A stretch of DNA of 41,751 bases from the NCBI GenBank assembly GCA_017601395.1, contig JAFNIQ010000011.1, positions 1-41,751 of the forward strand. Direction: 5' to 3'. The first letter of the stretch is position 1, and the number at the start of each line of letters is the position of its first letter. The DNA is from Candidatus Brockarchaeota archaeon. GTDB taxonomy: Archaea > Thermoproteota > EX4484-205 > JAAOZP01. Made by a program: the position numbers and the translations under genes. Below the pieces are notes generated by a model, which saw only the letters and a list, made by a program, of their open reading frames with translations, was not told where the DNA came from and ran no database searches. This document shows, one piece after another, positions 1,378-9,733 of the stretch.

Positions 1378-2031
1378 TTATCTTGATCGCCGCTTGGCCT
1401 TCTTAACCTCTATCCCCTTGCTTATCAGGAATTCGTTCATCATCTCCTCGTTTATGAACATCTCCCTAGCATCGGCGATTGCATCCACTCTTTTCATGAT
1501 CTCGTTGATCGTTTGTTCCTCATCCATCCCCGCCGAGTTGAAGGCAGTTTCGAAACCGGATTCGTAATCTATATCGAATCTCGTTTCAAAACCATATTTG
1601 TTGCTTATCCTCTTGGCCACTTCAGTGCCCCACATGTGCTTTTTGGCATAATATGCGATGCTCCTCTCCATTTTCAAGTACTTCTCGTACCTTCCCTGCC
1701 TGAAGTCCTCGATTATCCCCTCCTCTTCCTCGAGTTCCTCCTTATTGATCTTTTCTCTCTCTTCTTCGGTCCTAGCCCTCTCATACCTTCGCCTATATTT
1801 CTTGCTATATAGGTAATCCGATATTTCGCTACGGGTGTGCTCGGGACCAGCATCAACTATAACCCTCCCATCTTCGTATGCTGTGATAGAGATGTCGTAA
1901 ACACGACGTGACCTAACAATTATAAACCACTTCTCTGTGAGCGCAGGGCTAATTAGTTCGACTTTCTCACGTTCAAGCTTAAATCTCTCGGCCAGTAGGT
2001 TCCTCAACTTCTCCACGATGCTTTCGCTCAT
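1378..2031 (-). CDS. Hypothetical charged cytosolic protein, 217 aa; possible partner/immunity protein of the upstream giant protein
   Basis: ORF starts in the ATGA overlap with the stop of the 2028-6770 gene. No signal peptide or TM; highly charged. Confidence 0.8.
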   Translation of the reverse strand: MSESIVEKLRNLLAERFKLEREKVELISPALTEKWFIIVRSRRVYDISITAYEDGRVIVDAGPEHTRSEISDYLYSKKYRRRYERARTEEEREKINKEELEEEEGIIEDFRQGRYEKYLKMERSIAYYAKKHMWGTEVAKRISNKYGFETRFDIDYESGFETAFNSAGMDEEQTINEIMKRVDAIADAREMFINEEMMNEFLISKGIEVKKAKRRSR

Positions 2032-5000
2032 CCCGCTAGTTCACCCCTCGTATAGACTTCTATGAGCGGAGGTATGTCCGGTTCGCCGGCGAGGGCCCGT
2101 ACCGGATCATACGAGAAACCTATTGCGACGCCATACTGAACATCCTTATATTCATCGAGCTTAATATGCTCCTTAAGGTCCGTATTCTTTACATCATCAC
2201 ATAGCTTTTTCAAATCTCCTCCCCTTACTGTTGACTCCATCTCTATTATTGCTATTGTGTCGCCACTCTTAAATACCACTTTACCATTAACCACAATGTC
2301 CTTTAGGGCGAATATTTTACCATCGGGTTTCCTTTTTCCACCAATGTGTTGGAAATTCACGGTATCCCTAACCCTAAGGACTTCTAGCGGTATCCCGGTT
2401 TTCTTGGAAAACTCCGCGAGGATCATCTCTCGATAATCTATCCCCCTGTATCCAAGGATCACGATACGCTCCCCTGCTATACCTACCTGAGTTTTCACTT
2501 TGCTCAGATCATCGGCTTCGATTACTTGGCGGAGATAAGAGGATGTCTCATCATCTATCAGGACTATCCTTATGTACCGTATTTCGCTTGCACCATCGGG
2601 TACATGAGCTCCAAATCTATCAGTTCCACAGTATGCCATTTCGCCGTTATCATACTCCAAGATGACACCATACTTGCTCCCAATGTCTCTCTCAAGCTCC
2701 TTCAAGGCGTTATAGCCCAGCAACCTGAATAACTTCCTTTTCAATCCAACACATTTCTGGCCTTTTTCCAAGGGTGCCAGGTAGGAACGCTTGCCTGTCT
2801 GCTCATTGAGAGACTTAAAGTTGAAGCTATACTCAGCTAGTTTCGGTTTATCCTCTATGTCATCAAGATATCCTATCCTCATTAAATCTAACATACTATC
2901 TAGCTCAATTCTTTTAACGAGATAAGAGTTCCCTCCAATCCTGATCCTAACTTCTCTATCATCATAGAAGAAAATAACAAGGTTGTTGCCTCCTATGTCC
3001 TTGCCTTCTAACTCCGCGTGGACATGGATCCTTCCTCCCCAAATATCCGTATCCAGCTCAAACTTGAAACTCTTCCCACCGATCTTCATCTCGTTTTTGA
3101 AGAGATCAAGCTTTATTTCTATTCCGCCAACTGAGAATTCTCTTGGGAAGAAGAGCCTGTAGTCGAGAAACTCAGCCTTAGTCACTAAAATCTCTACCTC
3201 ATCACCCCCTATTTCATTCAACACTTGATCAACCTGATGCTCCGGTATACCCACACTTTTTGATCCCCTACTCTTAACCGGAAACTCCATCACCCCTTTC
3301 TTCTCCCCGCACTCCCAGTAGATCCTCGCCACATACGTCCCCGGACTAAGCTTATTGTCCTTCCCCATATTGAGAGCCCGATCCTCTCCCCTCTTCAGCG
3401 TAATCCTATGGGGCTCTCGAAACTCGAATACCTTTATTCCGGCGAGGAGTTCCTTCAGCCCGTCCGGCTTCTCGAGTATGCCTCCTATTTCCTTCATTCC
3501 AACCCCTGATGCGAGGAGCTTCTCCAAGCACCCGAGCTCATCGGAGCCTAACTTAGCCAGCTTCGGCGCTAGCTTAATGACCGCGTACTCAACCTCATTG
3601 CCTTCAGCGTTAAAAATCGAGCGTAACAGCTCGTCTACGCATCTCTTGCTTTTTTCACTGATGTTCTCTATCTCCTGGATGAACTTGTCCCAGGCCTCAT
3701 CGCTTAGCCTGCATTTTCCATACGCTCGGAGCAAGCCCAGAAAGGCTTCCTCGCTCAATCCAAGCTTGCCAGAAACATCCAGAGCGTCATCTAGGAATCT
3801 CCCGGTGGATTCAACCAGCGAGCTCAGCGATTCCTCATCATCCTTAATCCTATTCAGGTATTCTTTGAAATCACCGCTCTCTCCAGAGATCGCCAGTGAG
3901 GCGGCAATCCCCCTTGCCGTAAGCTTTCCAGCTATGATTCCAATATCCCATAATGGCGGGGTTATCCAGTTGTAGACTCCCTTCAAAAATTCCTTTATCC
4001 GTCCCGCGCGCGAAAGCAGCATCGGCCCATTGCTGAGGAACTTGTAGTAGATGCCAACGTAGGTGGCAAGCGATAGCGCTGACCCCACCAGCCTTCCTAA
4101 GGCCTTACCCTTCTCATACTCTCTCGCATCTTCATTACCAAAAGTTACTAGCAAATCCCTTACCGTCACGTCAGCGAGGAGGTCTAGCGCTGTGTCGCCA
4201 ACTATGTATCCTTGTTTCTCTTTAATCTTGCTCCTGAGTCCCTGGAATAAGTAATACGCGTTAAAGTATCCTGCATAAGCAGCCCTCTGGGAAAAGCCGT
4301 CGAGCTCTCCAGCTACTTCATCCATCTTTTTGTAGGCTGAGTAGGCCTCGAGGATCTCCCTGATGTTAGATGCTACCCCGACGGCGAAAAGGCTCGGAAT
4401 TACTGCTGAGGTTATAAGGTTCTTAACATATGCCAGGAGGGAGCCGCCCTTCGTCGGCACTGCTAGTATGACCATTATCGTCGCTGTTATGATTATCCCT
4501 GAAAGCTTCTCCTTTATTCCATCCCAGAAGCCTCTCCAGAACTCCGAGACCTCGCCTGTAGCATGGACCCGAAGGAATACGACGATCCTGCCCTGATATT
4601 TCAAGTAGATTAAGACCGGATGGCTTGCGCTCTTACGTTGAATGAGGCTCAGAGGGATTGAGCCATGGGCCGGAATGCTGAGAGCAATGTTCTCCGGCAG
4701 ATTCTCAGCTATTGGCCATTGGAGGATTTCGAGCTCGTAAACGATGTCCCATGCAGCGTAGTTCTTGACTAAAACTCCTTTGACTAAGTCCCCCTGATAC
4801 ATAAGTGGACGGTATACTAGCTCTATAGTTTTATCGTGCAGAACGCTGGCAATGGCTTTGTCCAGGTCCCATTTCTTAACCCCTGTATCCTCATACTTAT
4901 AGTCGTGATCCTCCCAGCTGCTATACTTAAGCTTCTCGTAAAAATCGTCGTTAACCGTCACGATTTCGGACTGGTTGAGAACTTCTTCCTTAACCAGCTT

Positions 5001-6770
5001 AATCTCATAGCTTGGTGGAATCTTACTGGGTTCTAGTCTTTCATCTTCATTTATGTGGAAGAGCTTCTTAACCTCGTCCTCCCTCAAAACCCTCTCATAA
5101 AGGAAGCCCGGCTTAACGTCAAGGAGCATATACCTTACTTCGGGGGCTTCGATGCTGCTCGCATTACCTAAAGTCAGCGTGAAGCCCTTGGGGGAAATGG
5201 GGATTAAGCTTAATCCACTGAAGAAACTTATAGATGAAGGCGCCAGGCAATTCTTCATCAGGTAGAGCTTAACGTGTGTCGCGCACCGGTAGCCGGGGAC
5301 GAAGACCCTCTTGGTTTCCTCATAGCCTTTAAACTCTATGAGGTATGTCCTCCACTCCTCCGGGGTTACAAAGTTTGTTGTCGAGATCGTCGTGAGTGAA
5401 GTACTGGTATGCCTCTTGCCCTCAAGATCGTGATAGACTGCTGTGACGTTGACTTTAGCGATCGGTGAGAGTAGCTTGGTTATCACGCTTCCCCGCCAGG
5501 TGTGCCAGACTCTTCCAACCCCCAGCTCTTTCTCCTCGACATCCCCGGTTACGAGCAGCTTAACACCCGTAGCCTCCTGCCCGCCGCTGTTGACCAGGGT
5601 TATTGTGAGGTTCGCAAACTTGGCTAGGGCCTCGGCTTCAACTTCAACCCTCAGCCTTGGGGCTTCTGGCAACACGGTAACAACGTAGGTTACTGTTTTC
5701 CCGCCGTTCCAGAACACTACATCTAGATTCTTAGGTTCAACGATGGCGAAGTAGATAGTAACCTGGTAAACTCCTGGTCTCTTAGCTCTAAGGTATAGAT
5801 GTGATGCTGGGCATCCTGAGCCGTATGGGAAGCCTACTGGAGGAGGGGCCCAAGCTTCAAACGCGTCTTCGTCGGAGAACCTCGCACCGAGCAAGACCCT
5901 GAAATCTCGAGCCTCCTGGGGGTTCCTTATCCGAGCGCTTATCGTTATTACATCCCCTATTTTGACCCTTGTCGGAGAGATCGAGGTGTCTACAACGAGG
6001 GGATCGTGGGCTGGGAGCAGAACTCTGAACTCGCTTACCTGAGATATCACAGCCTCACGTGTTTCCTCGAAGTGCCCGGGCACTGCGACGATGAAGCTCT
6101 CGAAGCCGAAGCTGCCTTGAGTCACGTTAGAGAAGAGCCCGATGTTTATCCTAGCGGTCTTGTTAAACACTTCCCCGGTCTTCAGGTCTAGGAACGTGAA
6201 AGTGTAAGCGTCAGGGTCAACGACCCTAACCAGATATGTCCTCCTCTTAGGATACCTGCGGAGGACGTAGAAAAGGCTTGTTCCGTTGCTCTCATACTTT
6301 ATTGAGCTTACGTCAACGTCTCTCCCCCGACCATCAACCACCTTATAGGGAATTTCTACGGATACGCTTCCATCGTCGCTTCGAATGATTCGAGCATCAT
6401 CATACTTCAGGATTATCGTGTAGTTCTTAAGCTCGTAGCCTATCCGCATTGGCAACCTCAGGGTATCATTAGCATCGATTATGGCCTGGCGAATCTCACT
6501 GTCAGAGCAGCCCGTCGAGACTAGTTGGGCTATGAAGAGCCAGAGCCTCTTAGCGAGCTCGACTGGAAACCCCTCGGGTATGATGAAGTTGGCCTCGGTC
6601 ACCGAGCCGCTCGGTATCCTCCCCTTCTCAAGCTCCTCCTCTATCCTCCTAAGGGTAGCTACCGCATCCGTCTCCTCCCCATGAGCTTGAAGGCGGAGTA
6701 TTGCATCGAAGTGCGAGGTCAGTATAAGGATCGAGATGATTATAGCCAGTGCCTTTCTAAGCATTCTCAC
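2028..6770 (-). CDS. Giant secreted/membrane multidomain protein, 1580 aa, with a C-terminal domain resembling a PD-(D/E)XK nuclease
   Basis: N-terminal hydrophobic signal (MRMLRKALAIIISILILTSHFDAILRLQAHG), extracellular beta-rich repeats, central hydrophobic segments (GIIITATIMVILAVP; LITSAVIPSLFAVGVAS), helical region, then beta-rich C-terminus with KRKPDGKIF...DTIAIIEMESTVRGGDLKKLCDDV. Confidence 0.88.
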   Translation of the reverse strand: MRMLRKALAIIISILILTSHFDAILRLQAHGEETDAVATLRRIEEELEKGRIPSGSVTEANFIIPEGFPVELAKRLWLFIAQLVSTGCSDSEIRQAIIDANDTLRLPMRIGYELKNYTIILKYDDARIIRSDDGSVSVEIPYKVVDGRGRDVDVSSIKYESNGTSLFYVLRRYPKRRTYLVRVVDPDAYTFTFLDLKTGEVFNKTARINIGLFSNVTQGSFGFESFIVAVPGHFEETREAVISQVSEFRVLLPAHDPLVVDTSISPTRVKIGDVITISARIRNPQEARDFRVLLGARFSDEDAFEAWAPPPVGFPYGSGCPASHLYLRAKRPGVYQVTIYFAIVEPKNLDVVFWNGGKTVTYVVTVLPEAPRLRVEVEAEALAKFANLTITLVNSGGQEATGVKLLVTGDVEEKELGVGRVWHTWRGSVITKLLSPIAKVNVTAVYHDLEGKRHTSTSLTTISTTNFVTPEEWRTYLIEFKGYEETKRVFVPGYRCATHVKLYLMKNCLAPSSISFFSGLSLIPISPKGFTLTLGNASSIEAPEVRYMLLDVKPGFLYERVLREDEVKKLFHINEDERLEPSKIPPSYEIKLVKEEVLNQSEIVTVNDDFYEKLKYSSWEDHDYKYEDTGVKKWDLDKAIASVLHDKTIELVYRPLMYQGDLVKGVLVKNYAAWDIVYELEILQWPIAENLPENIALSIPAHGSIPLSLIQRKSASHPVLIYLKYQGRIVVFLRVHATGEVSEFWRGFWDGIKEKLSGIIITATIMVILAVPTKGGSLLAYVKNLITSAVIPSLFAVGVASNIREILEAYSAYKKMDEVAGELDGFSQRAAYAGYFNAYYLFQGLRSKIKEKQGYIVGDTALDLLADVTVRDLLVTFGNEDAREYEKGKALGRLVGSALSLATYVGIYYKFLSNGPMLLSRAGRIKEFLKGVYNWITPPLWDIGIIAGKLTARGIAASLAISGESGDFKEYLNRIKDDEESLSSLVESTGRFLDDALDVSGKLGLSEEAFLGLLRAYGKCRLSDEAWDKFIQEIENISEKSKRCVDELLRSIFNAEGNEVEYAVIKLAPKLAKLGSDELGCLEKLLASGVGMKEIGGILEKPDGLKELLAGIKVFEFREPHRITLKRGEDRALNMGKDNKLSPGTYVARIYWECGEKKGVMEFPVKSRGSKSVGIPEHQVDQVLNEIGGDEVEILVTKAEFLDYRLFFPREFSVGGIEIKLDLFKNEMKIGGKSFKFELDTDIWGGRIHVHAELEGKDIGGNNLVIFFYDDREVRIRIGGNSYLVKRIELDSMLDLMRIGYLDDIEDKPKLAEYSFNFKSLNEQTGKRSYLAPLEKGQKCVGLKRKLFRLLGYNALKELERDIGSKYGVILEYDNGEMAYCGTDRFGAHVPDGASEIRYIRIVLIDDETSSYLRQVIEADDLSKVKTQVGIAGERIVILGYRGIDYREMILAEFSKKTGIPLEVLRVRDTVNFQHIGGKRKPDGKIFALKDIVVNGKVVFKSGDTIAIIEMESTVRGGDLKKLCDDVKNTDLKEHIKLDEYKDVQYGVAIGFSYDPVRALAGEPDIPPLIEVYTRGELAG

Positions 6771-7944
6771 CTACCTCCTCTCCACCTGTAGAAGCTGAAC
6801 TTGCATGGGATTTCCTCCCTAGGACAATGAACAAAAGGATCATGGAGAGACCTAAAAATCCCATTAAGAGCCTCATTAGGTTAAGCTCTTGAGCCAGCTT
6901 TTCAACTTCCCCAGCCTCCTTCAGCTGCTTCTTCTCATAAGCCTCAAGCGAGGCCTTCATAATCGTTATATCGGCCTCCTTACCTTCAAGCATATGTCTC
7001 AAGGTTTCCTGCTCCCTAGAGTTGTTCAGCATCGCCCTCAGAAACCAATTCTCATATCTAAGCCGGAGGTATTCTGAGAAGAGGGTTTCGCCGAGCTTAA
7101 TGACTAGGTTCGTGGTTGAGTTTAACGTCTTAGATCTCAGTACGAGCCCAGCCGGCTCCTTGAGGCCCGAAAGCTTTGGCCAATTAACCGTCACCTCGTA
7201 CAGCTCTCCCCTATGCATTACTTCACAATCCTCCGTTAGGAAACCCGTCTGAAGAGCTGCACTAACTTCAGTGACGTTGCTCGTAGCGATTACTCTGAAA
7301 AGGATCCTCAAGGATTCCTTCTCAAAGAAAATGGAATCGAGGATTATCTCGGCGAGGTCGGTTGCCTCTTCCCCCTTAACCCTTATCATCGCATTTCCCC
7401 CATCGAGCTTCCTCATCTCTTGTCTGTAACAATCGACGAGGAAGCTTCTGTCAGAGATCGTGTCGTTGTCGATGGCGATCCAGAGCTGAGTCTCGTTCGG
7501 CTCCAGCATGGGGTAAACGCAGACATAGAAGTTGCCCTCCACGATAACGCCCGGTAATGTAACCTTGGCCCAATCCAAGGTTGCATTCTTAAAGTAGTTA
7601 GGGATAGGAATGGAGACCTTGAAGACTACATTAAAATCATTATCCCTCACCTCTATGATGAAAGGTTTCTCGCCCTTAACTACAGCGAAGCCGTAGATGA
7701 GGACGGCTGTTATCCTCCACCTAAGGGCGGGAGGGGTGAATTTAACGGCTATCCCATTAGGATAGTAGTCGCTCCAGAAGCATTCCGCGCCACCATCGTC
7801 GTAACGTAACAATAGGCTTGAATCAGGATAAGCGTGTGAAGTTTGGGCTAACACCAATAGGATTGAAAGCACGGCTTTACCCACCGTTTGAGCTGCGGAT
7901 TTTACCTCTCCTCCAACTCCTAATTTATCAGCTTCGCTCCTCAT
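6757..7944 (-). CDS. Secreted protein with coiled coil and C-terminal TM anchor, 395 aa
   Basis: N-terminal hydrophobic segment AVLSILLVLAQTSHAYP, beta-rich ectodomain, coiled coil (EYLRLRYENWFLRAMLNNSREQETLRHMLEGKEAD...), C-terminal TM LLMGFLGLSMILLFIVLGRKS. Overlaps the next gene by 14 bp. Confidence 0.85.
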   Translation of the reverse strand: MRSEADKLGVGGEVKSAAQTVGKAVLSILLVLAQTSHAYPDSSLLLRYDDGGAECFWSDYYPNGIAVKFTPPALRWRITAVLIYGFAVVKGEKPFIIEVRDNDFNVVFKVSIPIPNYFKNATLDWAKVTLPGVIVEGNFYVCVYPMLEPNETQLWIAIDNDTISDRSFLVDCYRQEMRKLDGGNAMIRVKGEEATDLAEIILDSIFFEKESLRILFRVIATSNVTEVSAALQTGFLTEDCEVMHRGELYEVTVNWPKLSGLKEPAGLVLRSKTLNSTTNLVIKLGETLFSEYLRLRYENWFLRAMLNNSREQETLRHMLEGKEADITIMKASLEAYEKKQLKEAGEVEKLAQELNLMRLLMGFLGLSMILLFIVLGRKSHASSASTGGEEVGENA

Positions 7945-8206: not shown

Positions 8207-8440
8207 ATATTCGGCCATTCACATTGCTGGGTTTTAAACCCTAACGCCCTTCTCCTAAATCCTTGAAAGGCACTTGGCGCTTTAGGAGACGTTGCTAAAC
8301 GAAGGCGAGAAACTAGCGCGCTATTGGATATCCGTAGCATTCCACATAAGGCGCGCGCTAAGCGGCTTCCAGTACGTAGCGAAGGCCAAAGAATCCTATC
8401 TTAGGGAAAAGAACATTAAGAAGTGAATAAGCCAGTATGC

Positions 8441-8498
8441 TACAATATGCCCCTCCATATATACTTGCCGCATATTTCCCCTCAGGGACTCGAAAAAG
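8441..8498. repeat. Direct repeat copy 2 (right boundary of the 7.2 kb block)
   Basis: TACAATATGCCCCTCCATATATACTTGCCGCATATTTCCCCTCAGGGACTCGAAAAAG, near-identical to 1238-1293. Confidence 0.97.
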
Positions 8499-8533
8499 TT
8501 GAAATAGCCCTTGCTTGGGATGAGGGCGTTAAG

Positions 8534-9733
8534 TTGAACCCTAGGCTTAAGGCTGCTCGCAGAGCTTTAGAGATAGAGGGCGAGAGCTCCTTCCTAGTGC
8601 TGGGTAATGCGAAGATGCTTGAAACACAGGGCAGGAGGATAATCCATCTCGAAATAGGTGAACCAGATTTTACAACCCCGGCTAATATAAGGGAGGCTGC
8701 GATAAGGGCGTTGAAGGAGGGGGAGACCCATTATACTCCTACGCCCGGCATGCTGGAGCTGAGGAGGGCGATAGCTGAGAAGACTGCTCAGGATTTCGGT
8801 GTTGAAGTATGTTTCGAAAACGTTTCAGTAACGCTAGGCTCCAAGGAGGCTATTTTCGCAGCTTTAGCCTCGATAGTGGAGGAGGGGGACGAGGTGATCT
8901 ACCCGAATCCAGGTTACCAGGCTTACGCGAGTGGGGTAATGTTCTTTGGAGGAAAACCAGTGCCCGTCAGGCTGAGGGAGGAGGATGAGTTTAGAATGAC
9001 TCCCGACGAGGTTAACCGGCTGGTTTCAGACAGGACTAAGGCGATAATCATAAATTCTCCCCAGAACCCGACTGGGGCGGTTTTAAGCAGGGATGACGTT
9101 AAGGGTATTGTGGAGATAGCTAAGGATGCTGGAGCATACGTTATTAGCGACGAGATCTACAGGTACATAATATACGATGGTTTGAAACACTATTCGCCTC
9201 TTCAGTTCGACGAGAATCTGGAGAACACTATAGTGGTAGACGGTTTCTCGAAATACTATGCTATGACGGGGTGGAGGCTGGGTTACGTGATTACACCGGA
9301 GCATTTAACAGCCCCTCTCCAGCTTGTTTTAAACCTGGTAACAGCATGCCCGTCTTCTTTCATCCAGATAGGGGGTTTAGAGGCTTTGAGAAACGGTTCT
9401 AATGCTGTCCGAGAAATGGTTGAACAGTATGCTATTAGAAGGGGGGTTGTCATTGAAGAGGTGTCTAAAATGAGTGGTGTTCACATGGTTAGGCCTAGAG
9501 GAGCCTTCTACGGGTTTCTCAACGTTAAGGAAATAATCGGTAGGGCTGGAATTAACAGTTTGAAACTGGCCTCTATTCTGCTTGAGAAGTACGGGGTTGC
9601 AGTGTTGCATGGATCAGCCATGGGGTCTTTCGGAGAAGGCTATGTTAGGATAAGCTATGCTAACTCTGTTGAAAACATAAGGAACGGGTTAAGAATAATG
9701 AGTAAAGCTTTTAACGAGATAGCCGGGTTCTAA
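8534..9733 (+). CDS. Pyridoxal-phosphate aminotransferase, class I/II (aspartate aminotransferase-like)
   Basis: HLEIGEPDFTTP, NSPQNPTGAV, SDEIYRYIIYDG, VDGFSKYYAMTGWRLGY. The ORF opens at 8423, but those first codons lie in or next to the direct repeat. The start given is a TTG just before the recognisable LNPRLKAARRALEIEG. Confidence 0.93.
   Translation: MNPRLKAARRALEIEGESSFLVLGNAKMLETQGRRIIHLEIGEPDFTTPANIREAAIRALKEGETHYTPTPGMLELRRAIAEKTAQDFGVEVCFENVSVTLGSKEAIFAALASIVEEGDEVIYPNPGYQAYASGVMFFGGKPVPVRLREEDEFRMTPDEVNRLVSDRTKAIIINSPQNPTGAVLSRDDVKGIVEIAKDAGAYVISDEIYRYIIYDGLKHYSPLQFDENLENTIVVDGFSKYYAMTGWRLGYVITPEHLTAPLQLVLNLVTACPSSFIQIGGLEALRNGSNAVREMVEQYAIRRGVVIEEVSKMSGVHMVRPRGAFYGFLNVKEIIGRAGINSLKLASILLEKYGVAVLHGSAMGSFGEGYVRISYANSVENIRNGLRIMSKAFNEIAGF

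Follow-up and report, generated by a model that had tools for sequence, protein, structure and literature searches.

The locus examined here raises the question of whether a giant archaeal protein with a nuclease-like C-terminus is a polymorphic toxin or a surface protein of some other kind. The window (the whole 41,751-nt stretch of DNA that was analyzed) is one entire contig of a 2.14-Mb, 156-contig genome that matches the Candidatus Brockarchaeota MAG GD2_1, from a hot spring at 61.8°C in the GuDui geothermal area, Tibet (PMC8065059). An earlier note on this DNA had described a 1580-aa open reading frame (ORF) at positions 2028 to 6770. That exact, uninterrupted 1580-codon ORF is present on the minus strand (the note's fields gave no strand) with a GTG start at 6770, and the plus strand over the same interval carries stop codons throughout. 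An ORF of this length that is also conserved in several genomes is not a product of chance.

The giant gene is the middle of three minus-strand genes, preceded by a gene for a 395-aa, predicted membrane-anchored partner (6757 to 7944) and followed by one for a 217-aa cytosolic protein (1378 to 2031). Its overlaps with its neighbors, 14 nt on the upstream side and 4 nt on the downstream side, make the three look like one operon; the small gene that the note had reported after the giant is thus accounted for. The giant itself begins with a signal-peptide-like helix (residues 1 to 30; 6681 to 6770), again as the note had it, followed by a beta-sandwich-rich ectodomain (residues 31 to 740; 4551 to 6680), a central helical, partly hydrophobic module (residues 741 to 1090; 3501 to 4550), a linker or pre-toxin region (residues 1091 to 1363; 2682 to 3500), and a C-terminal PD-(D/E)XK nuclease-like domain, the predicted toxin (residues 1364 to 1580; 2031 to 2681). 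The three window proteins matched nothing in Pfam, NCBIfam, or PADLOC at curated cut-offs, and a PDB sequence search with the whole giant, like the phage and plasmid searches, returned zero matches.

The giant belongs to a multigene family: its own genome has 29 matching stretches, spread over 19 contigs, six of the seven congeners also gave matches, and one weaker match lies elsewhere in the order. When a carrier profile was applied to 300 genomes of the phylum, full carriers were confined to the genus, while the central module alone went beyond it. Carriers that are ~50 to 75% identical nevertheless end in unrelated C-terminal domains. The earlier note had proposed looking for a constant N-terminus and a variable C-terminus among homologs, and had counted a C-terminus as conserved as the rest against a toxin; among close paralogs, identity was ~60 to 85% over the first 720 residues and ~10 to 35% over the last 200, making the C-terminus the least conserved part, and tips were swapped between carriers of the same family. 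One congener's giant (L043) is 68% identical to that of the window over residues 3 to 1079 and has an unrelated C-terminus, locus L049 joins a window-type C-terminal domain to a divergent carrier common to L059 and L061, and L053 resembles the window giant closely only in residues 721 to 1080. These patterns make the giant a mosaic with three or more units. The MAG assemblies have many contig breaks at carrier and tip genes, leaving the copy number of the family in this MAG uncertain; in G000, contigs C20, C54, C107, C118, C105, C51, and C154 start or stop in or near family members. At the end of C20 (L028:1-2268), carrier residues 1 to 689 are fused in frame to tip residues 1489 to 1553, either an internal deletion or an assembly chimera.

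The pairing of tips with the gene that follows them was counted over 17 loci with a readable downstream gene, 8 of which carry the window's type of tip (type A) and 9 of which carry others. A member of the 217-aa family (immunity family A) followed all eight type-A tips and none of the nine others, a split with a chance probability of 1/C(17,8) = 4e-5. Type-B tips were followed in 6/6 loci by a second family, immunity family B, which is unrelated to family A and also occurs after one type-C tip (L058), an exception to one-to-one pairing at the superfamily level. Mantel tests were conducted on the ten loci with all parts. Similarity of tips correlated with that of downstream genes (rho 0.87, p=0.0002), while neither tips (rho −0.07, p=0.70) nor downstream genes (rho −0.02, p=0.53) followed the carrier; as the loci are related to one another, these p-values serve as guides rather than exact values. 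The 217-aa protein has no signal peptide and no transmembrane helix, no Pfam model matched its family, and the family was found in 10 of 12 genomes of the order and in 0 of 49 others searched. Predicted immunity proteins range in pI from 5.8 to 9.2 where acidic values would be expected, so no DNA-mimic argument can be made. The 217-aa gene is the predicted cognate immunity gene, and its co-segregation with the tip lends weight to the earlier proposal of an immunity gene behind the toxin.

Tip and antidote also occur as pairs with no carrier in the fetched flanks (L050, L054, L105, L106, and L108), and antidote genes are found in tandem and fused (L029, L048, and L106). The type-A domain is further joined to other N-terminal modules, on carriers of 2445, 2379, 2339, 843, and 824 aa (loci L095, L096, L097, L103, and L099). 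Orphan cassettes, tandem antidotes, and the presence of one domain on several carriers are criteria by which polymorphic toxins have been recognized (PMC3482391). At L048:3472-6450 (G002:C22), a broken type-A tip precedes a tandem of three antidote domains, of which a single 453-aa ORF contains two as a fusion; this resembles a polyimmunity locus. A second type of carrier, 2340 to 2445 aa long (L095:6042-13379, L096:3605-10744, and L097:54-7073) has a hydrophobic N-terminus, a type-A tip, and, where readable, an upstream gene of ~490 to 500 aa. A third, shorter carrier of 824 to 843 aa (L103:3292-5823 and L099:8702-11176) has the type-A domain at its end and the N-terminus MGQFSAELNY, with no obvious signal peptide.

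The C-terminal motifs quoted in the earlier note are exact, with D1483 in KPDG and E1510-x-E1512 in IIEMES. Homologs in the genome collection were gathered by a single-sequence scan, and 14 homologs of the window's C-terminal domain make up alignment A1. Here, Asp1483 (2322 to 2324, minus strand), the predicted first catalytic acid, is invariant; this D and E1510 are among the invariant or nearly invariant residues, and a GxxGE-like helix precedes both. Glu1510-Met-Glu1512 (2235 to 2243, minus strand) is an ExE variant of the ExK motif, whose third position is K in most relatives, E in the window copy and a few others, and T in one; ExE also occurs in the diverged copies L054, L056, and L041. 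The AlphaFold model of the domain is confident (pLDDT 93.4) and places helix, strand, D, strand, hairpin, strand with ExE, helix, and strand in PD-(D/E)XK order, giving the alpha-beta-beta-beta-alpha-beta core with D before a strand and (D/E)xK, here ExE, on the next core strand. This order and the ExK of most relatives support the nuclease-like C-terminus described earlier; they do not fit the non-nuclease fold lacking a conserved D/E/K site that the note had held would speak against it.

In Foldseek searches of the PDB, the leading matches to this model were all of the restriction-endonuclease kind (arenavirus endonuclease, NucC, BstEII, HindIII, DXO1/Rai1, and a HerA-associated nuclease), and with E values of 0.16 or worse (no PDB match fell below 0.1) and TM-scores near 0.2 these are suggestive only. 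A viral fold library gave a similar picture, its best match being unnamed (E 0.006). One family member matched Pfam PDDEXK_9 at 6.7e-4, below the curated cut-off, and the window domain's own Pfam match was FokI_cleav_dom at 0.065; no Pfam or NCBIfam toxin or immunity model matched the C-terminus or its relatives at cut-off, and a PDB sequence search with the C-terminal profile gave nothing meaningful. In alignments, the other tips also appear nuclease-like, with E, D, and ExKHG motifs in type B, which has a weak NucS match (E 0.1), and D and E/Q/DxK/R in type C. In hhalign comparisons, the ExK strand alone aligned between types A and B and nothing aligned between A and C, so the tip types cannot be joined by sequence. 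The motifs suggest that all tips are PD-(D/E)XK domains, of which types A, B, and C may be independent clades.

The upstream 395-aa protein combines a signal-peptide-like N-terminal segment (clearer in paralogs than in the window copy), a beta-rich ectodomain, a Lys/Glu-rich stalk, and a strong C-terminal transmembrane helix at residues 356 to 374. Homologs of it are placed upstream of carriers at paralog loci, and its similarity tracks that of the giant's ectodomain (Mantel 0.885, p=0.0003) and not that of the C-terminal tip (Mantel 0.07, p=0.28). No secretion or processing machinery was identified beyond this protein. The AlphaFold model of the carrier is poor (mean pLDDT 59); both the beta-rich ectodomain described in the earlier note and an all-helical middle appear in it, at low confidence. 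Foldseek matches to this model were multi-Ig/alpha-2-macroglobulin-like, and with TM-scores near 0.1 and so poor a model they are compatible, at most, with a beta-sandwich ectodomain. A fold assignment for the carrier was dropped on account of the model.

The central hydrophobic segments that had been noted lie at residues 756 to 774 and 779 to 797, as two moderately hydrophobic helices, with a weaker third at 893 to 911 within an all-helical region. This central module is conserved across carriers and is a candidate membrane-insertion or translocation module, a delivery role that is speculative given the poor carrier model. Residues ~736 to 1010 have counterparts in a different archaeal family, where the ectodomains are unrelated, and the last ~160 residues of the linker are more widely shared than the toxin tip. 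In G193, from another archaeal family, two giants (L125:4385-9673 and L124:3675-6884) share with the window giant the central hydrophobic module only; they have unrelated ectodomains (in L125, with a stalk rich in Thr and Ser) and type-C tips, and each is followed by a ~180-aa gene of its own, these two downstream genes being similar to each other.

Just outside the operon lies a 47-nt direct repeat on the plus strand, with a left copy at 1247 to 1293 and a right copy at 8452 to 8498, inside the 5' end of an aminotransferase gene (8423 to 9733). These are its only two copies in the genome, and they are 98% identical. In congener G003 the flanks join through a single repeat copy (G003:C34; L128 and L133), constituting an empty site, and in G004 (C7) and G007 (C5) the two flanking genes are likewise neighbors. 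The 7.2-kb module was therefore either acquired here or lost in those congeners. G005, the nearest congener, has a 98% identical aminotransferase and contigs that break at the corresponding spot; a close copy of the giant was not detected in that genome. No recombinase was seen between the two repeat copies.

Overall, we conclude with a probability of roughly 0.87 that the locus is a complete archaeal polymorphic toxin system with a C-terminal PD-(D/E)XK nuclease and a cognate antidote. The grounds are read from sequence: the three-gene layout, exchangeable C-termini, co-inheritance of tip and downstream gene, and orphan cassettes, together with the nuclease motifs and element order and the wholesale gain or loss of the module among congeners. 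The candidate polymorphic toxin of the earlier note is strongly supported, with "toxin" and "surface effector" standing as predictions of function. We infer secretion, display, delivery, toxicity, nuclease activity, and neutralization along the following lines. The 395-aa membrane-anchored partner and the secreted giant would display the C-terminal nuclease at the cell surface or outside the cell. A related cell that has no matching antidote would be reached by contact; the carrier would insert its helical hydrophobic module into the membrane of that cell, letting the C-terminal domain through to the interior to cut DNA (or RNA). Producer and kin would be spared, as the 217-aa protein in their cytosol would bind the nuclease that it matches and block it. 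Tip and antidote move as one cassette, recombining onto different carriers. A bolder reading, which we hold only tentatively, is a self-contained, archaea-specific killing system of three independently exchanged cassettes that works without a dedicated secretion machine; these would be the ectodomain with its partner (recognition), the helical hydrophobic module (delivery device), and the nuclease with its antidote.

Could the giant instead be a variable surface protein, such as an adhesin, a self/non-self marker, or a DNA scavenger, whose nuclease is extracellular, for instance breaking down environmental DNA, and whose downstream gene is merely co-transcribed? The signal-peptide-like N-terminus and Ig-like ectodomain would suit such a protein, as would its multicopy and variable nature, seen also in the VARTIG modules of Thermococcales (PMC8416519). 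However, it is the nuclease tip, not the ectodomain, with which a signal-less cytosolic protein co-segregates, and the 217-aa family has orphan and tandem copies; since an extracellular nuclease needs no cytosolic antidote, the 217-aa partner makes this explanation improbable. A purely structural protein was rejected, as its C-terminus would not then have the motifs of a nuclease and be paired with a gene for a cytosolic protein.

PD-(D/E)XK nucleases are frequent among defense effectors, and three membrane-spanning helices, the third at 893 to 911, would leave the C-terminus in the cytosol. The giant might then act in abortive infection, with the ectodomain sensing virus, the nuclease acting in the producer's own cytosol, and the 217-aa protein controlling it. 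We regard this as very improbable, as there was no PADLOC match, the 843- and 824-aa carriers of the same domain have a quite different N-terminus, and cassette exchange, orphan cassettes, and spare-antidote arrays are hallmarks of polymorphic toxins (PMC3482391) rather than of known defense systems. A narrower doubt accepts the polymorphic toxin family and holds that the window copy is catalytically weakened or dead, as ExE replaces ExK at 1510 to 1512. Yet BamHI naturally uses ExE, the variant recurs in the three diverged copies listed above, and both the ORF and the immunity gene are intact, which leaves this a rather unlikely case.

The locus thus read as a polymorphic toxin system resembles the bacterial systems with restriction-endonuclease-fold toxins, REase-1 to REase-10 (Zhang et al. 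2012, PMC3482391), in its long, predicted secreted carrier with a constant N-terminus and an exchangeable C-terminal domain predicted to be a toxin of that fold, its immunity gene directly downstream, its standalone toxin-immunity cassettes, and its tandem immunity genes. It differs from them in that no RHS, filamentous hemagglutinin, or PT-VENN domain is recognizable in the carrier, a dedicated gene for a membrane-anchored partner has co-evolved with the ectodomain, and the tip and 217-aa families have no Pfam or NCBIfam toxin or immunity match at cut-off. The three-gene logic of partner, giant toxin, and immunity with an exchangeable nuclease tip recalls CDI (CdiB-CdiA-CdiI), although the first gene here encodes a transmembrane-anchored protein rather than an outer-membrane TpsB transporter and the host is archaeal; at Pfam and NCBIfam cut-offs, no TpsB, two-partner-secretion, or filamentous hemagglutinin domain was found in the three window proteins. 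Among archaea, predicted contact-dependent toxins with nuclease toxins and Ig-containing carriers (Makarova et al. 2019, mBio, as outlined in PMC8416519) are alike in kind, a likeness drawn from that description rather than from sequence. Like VARTIG modules (PMC8416519), the window encodes a giant, predicted secreted Ig-like protein with a C-terminus diversified by recombination in a single archaeal lineage; in VARTIG, however, it is an Ig domain that varies, and no nuclease toxin is identifiable, whereas the variable part here is a PD-(D/E)XK-like alpha/beta domain with a paired cytosolic protein.

What is new is a large, shuffled Brockarchaeota family with its own carriers and with tip and immunity families for which the searched libraries have no model. 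Polymorphic toxins have been called rare in archaea (PMC3482391), and those of archaea were, as of 2021, predicted and not experimentally characterized (PMC8416519). In this lineage the set is large and shuffled, its toxin-antidote pairs are clear, its predicted nucleases fall into several distinct types, and at least two of its immunity families are absent from those libraries, so that pairs can be selected directly for expression tests. The mosaic also makes it possible to ask which of the modules is responsible for target recognition, which for membrane crossing, and which for killing.
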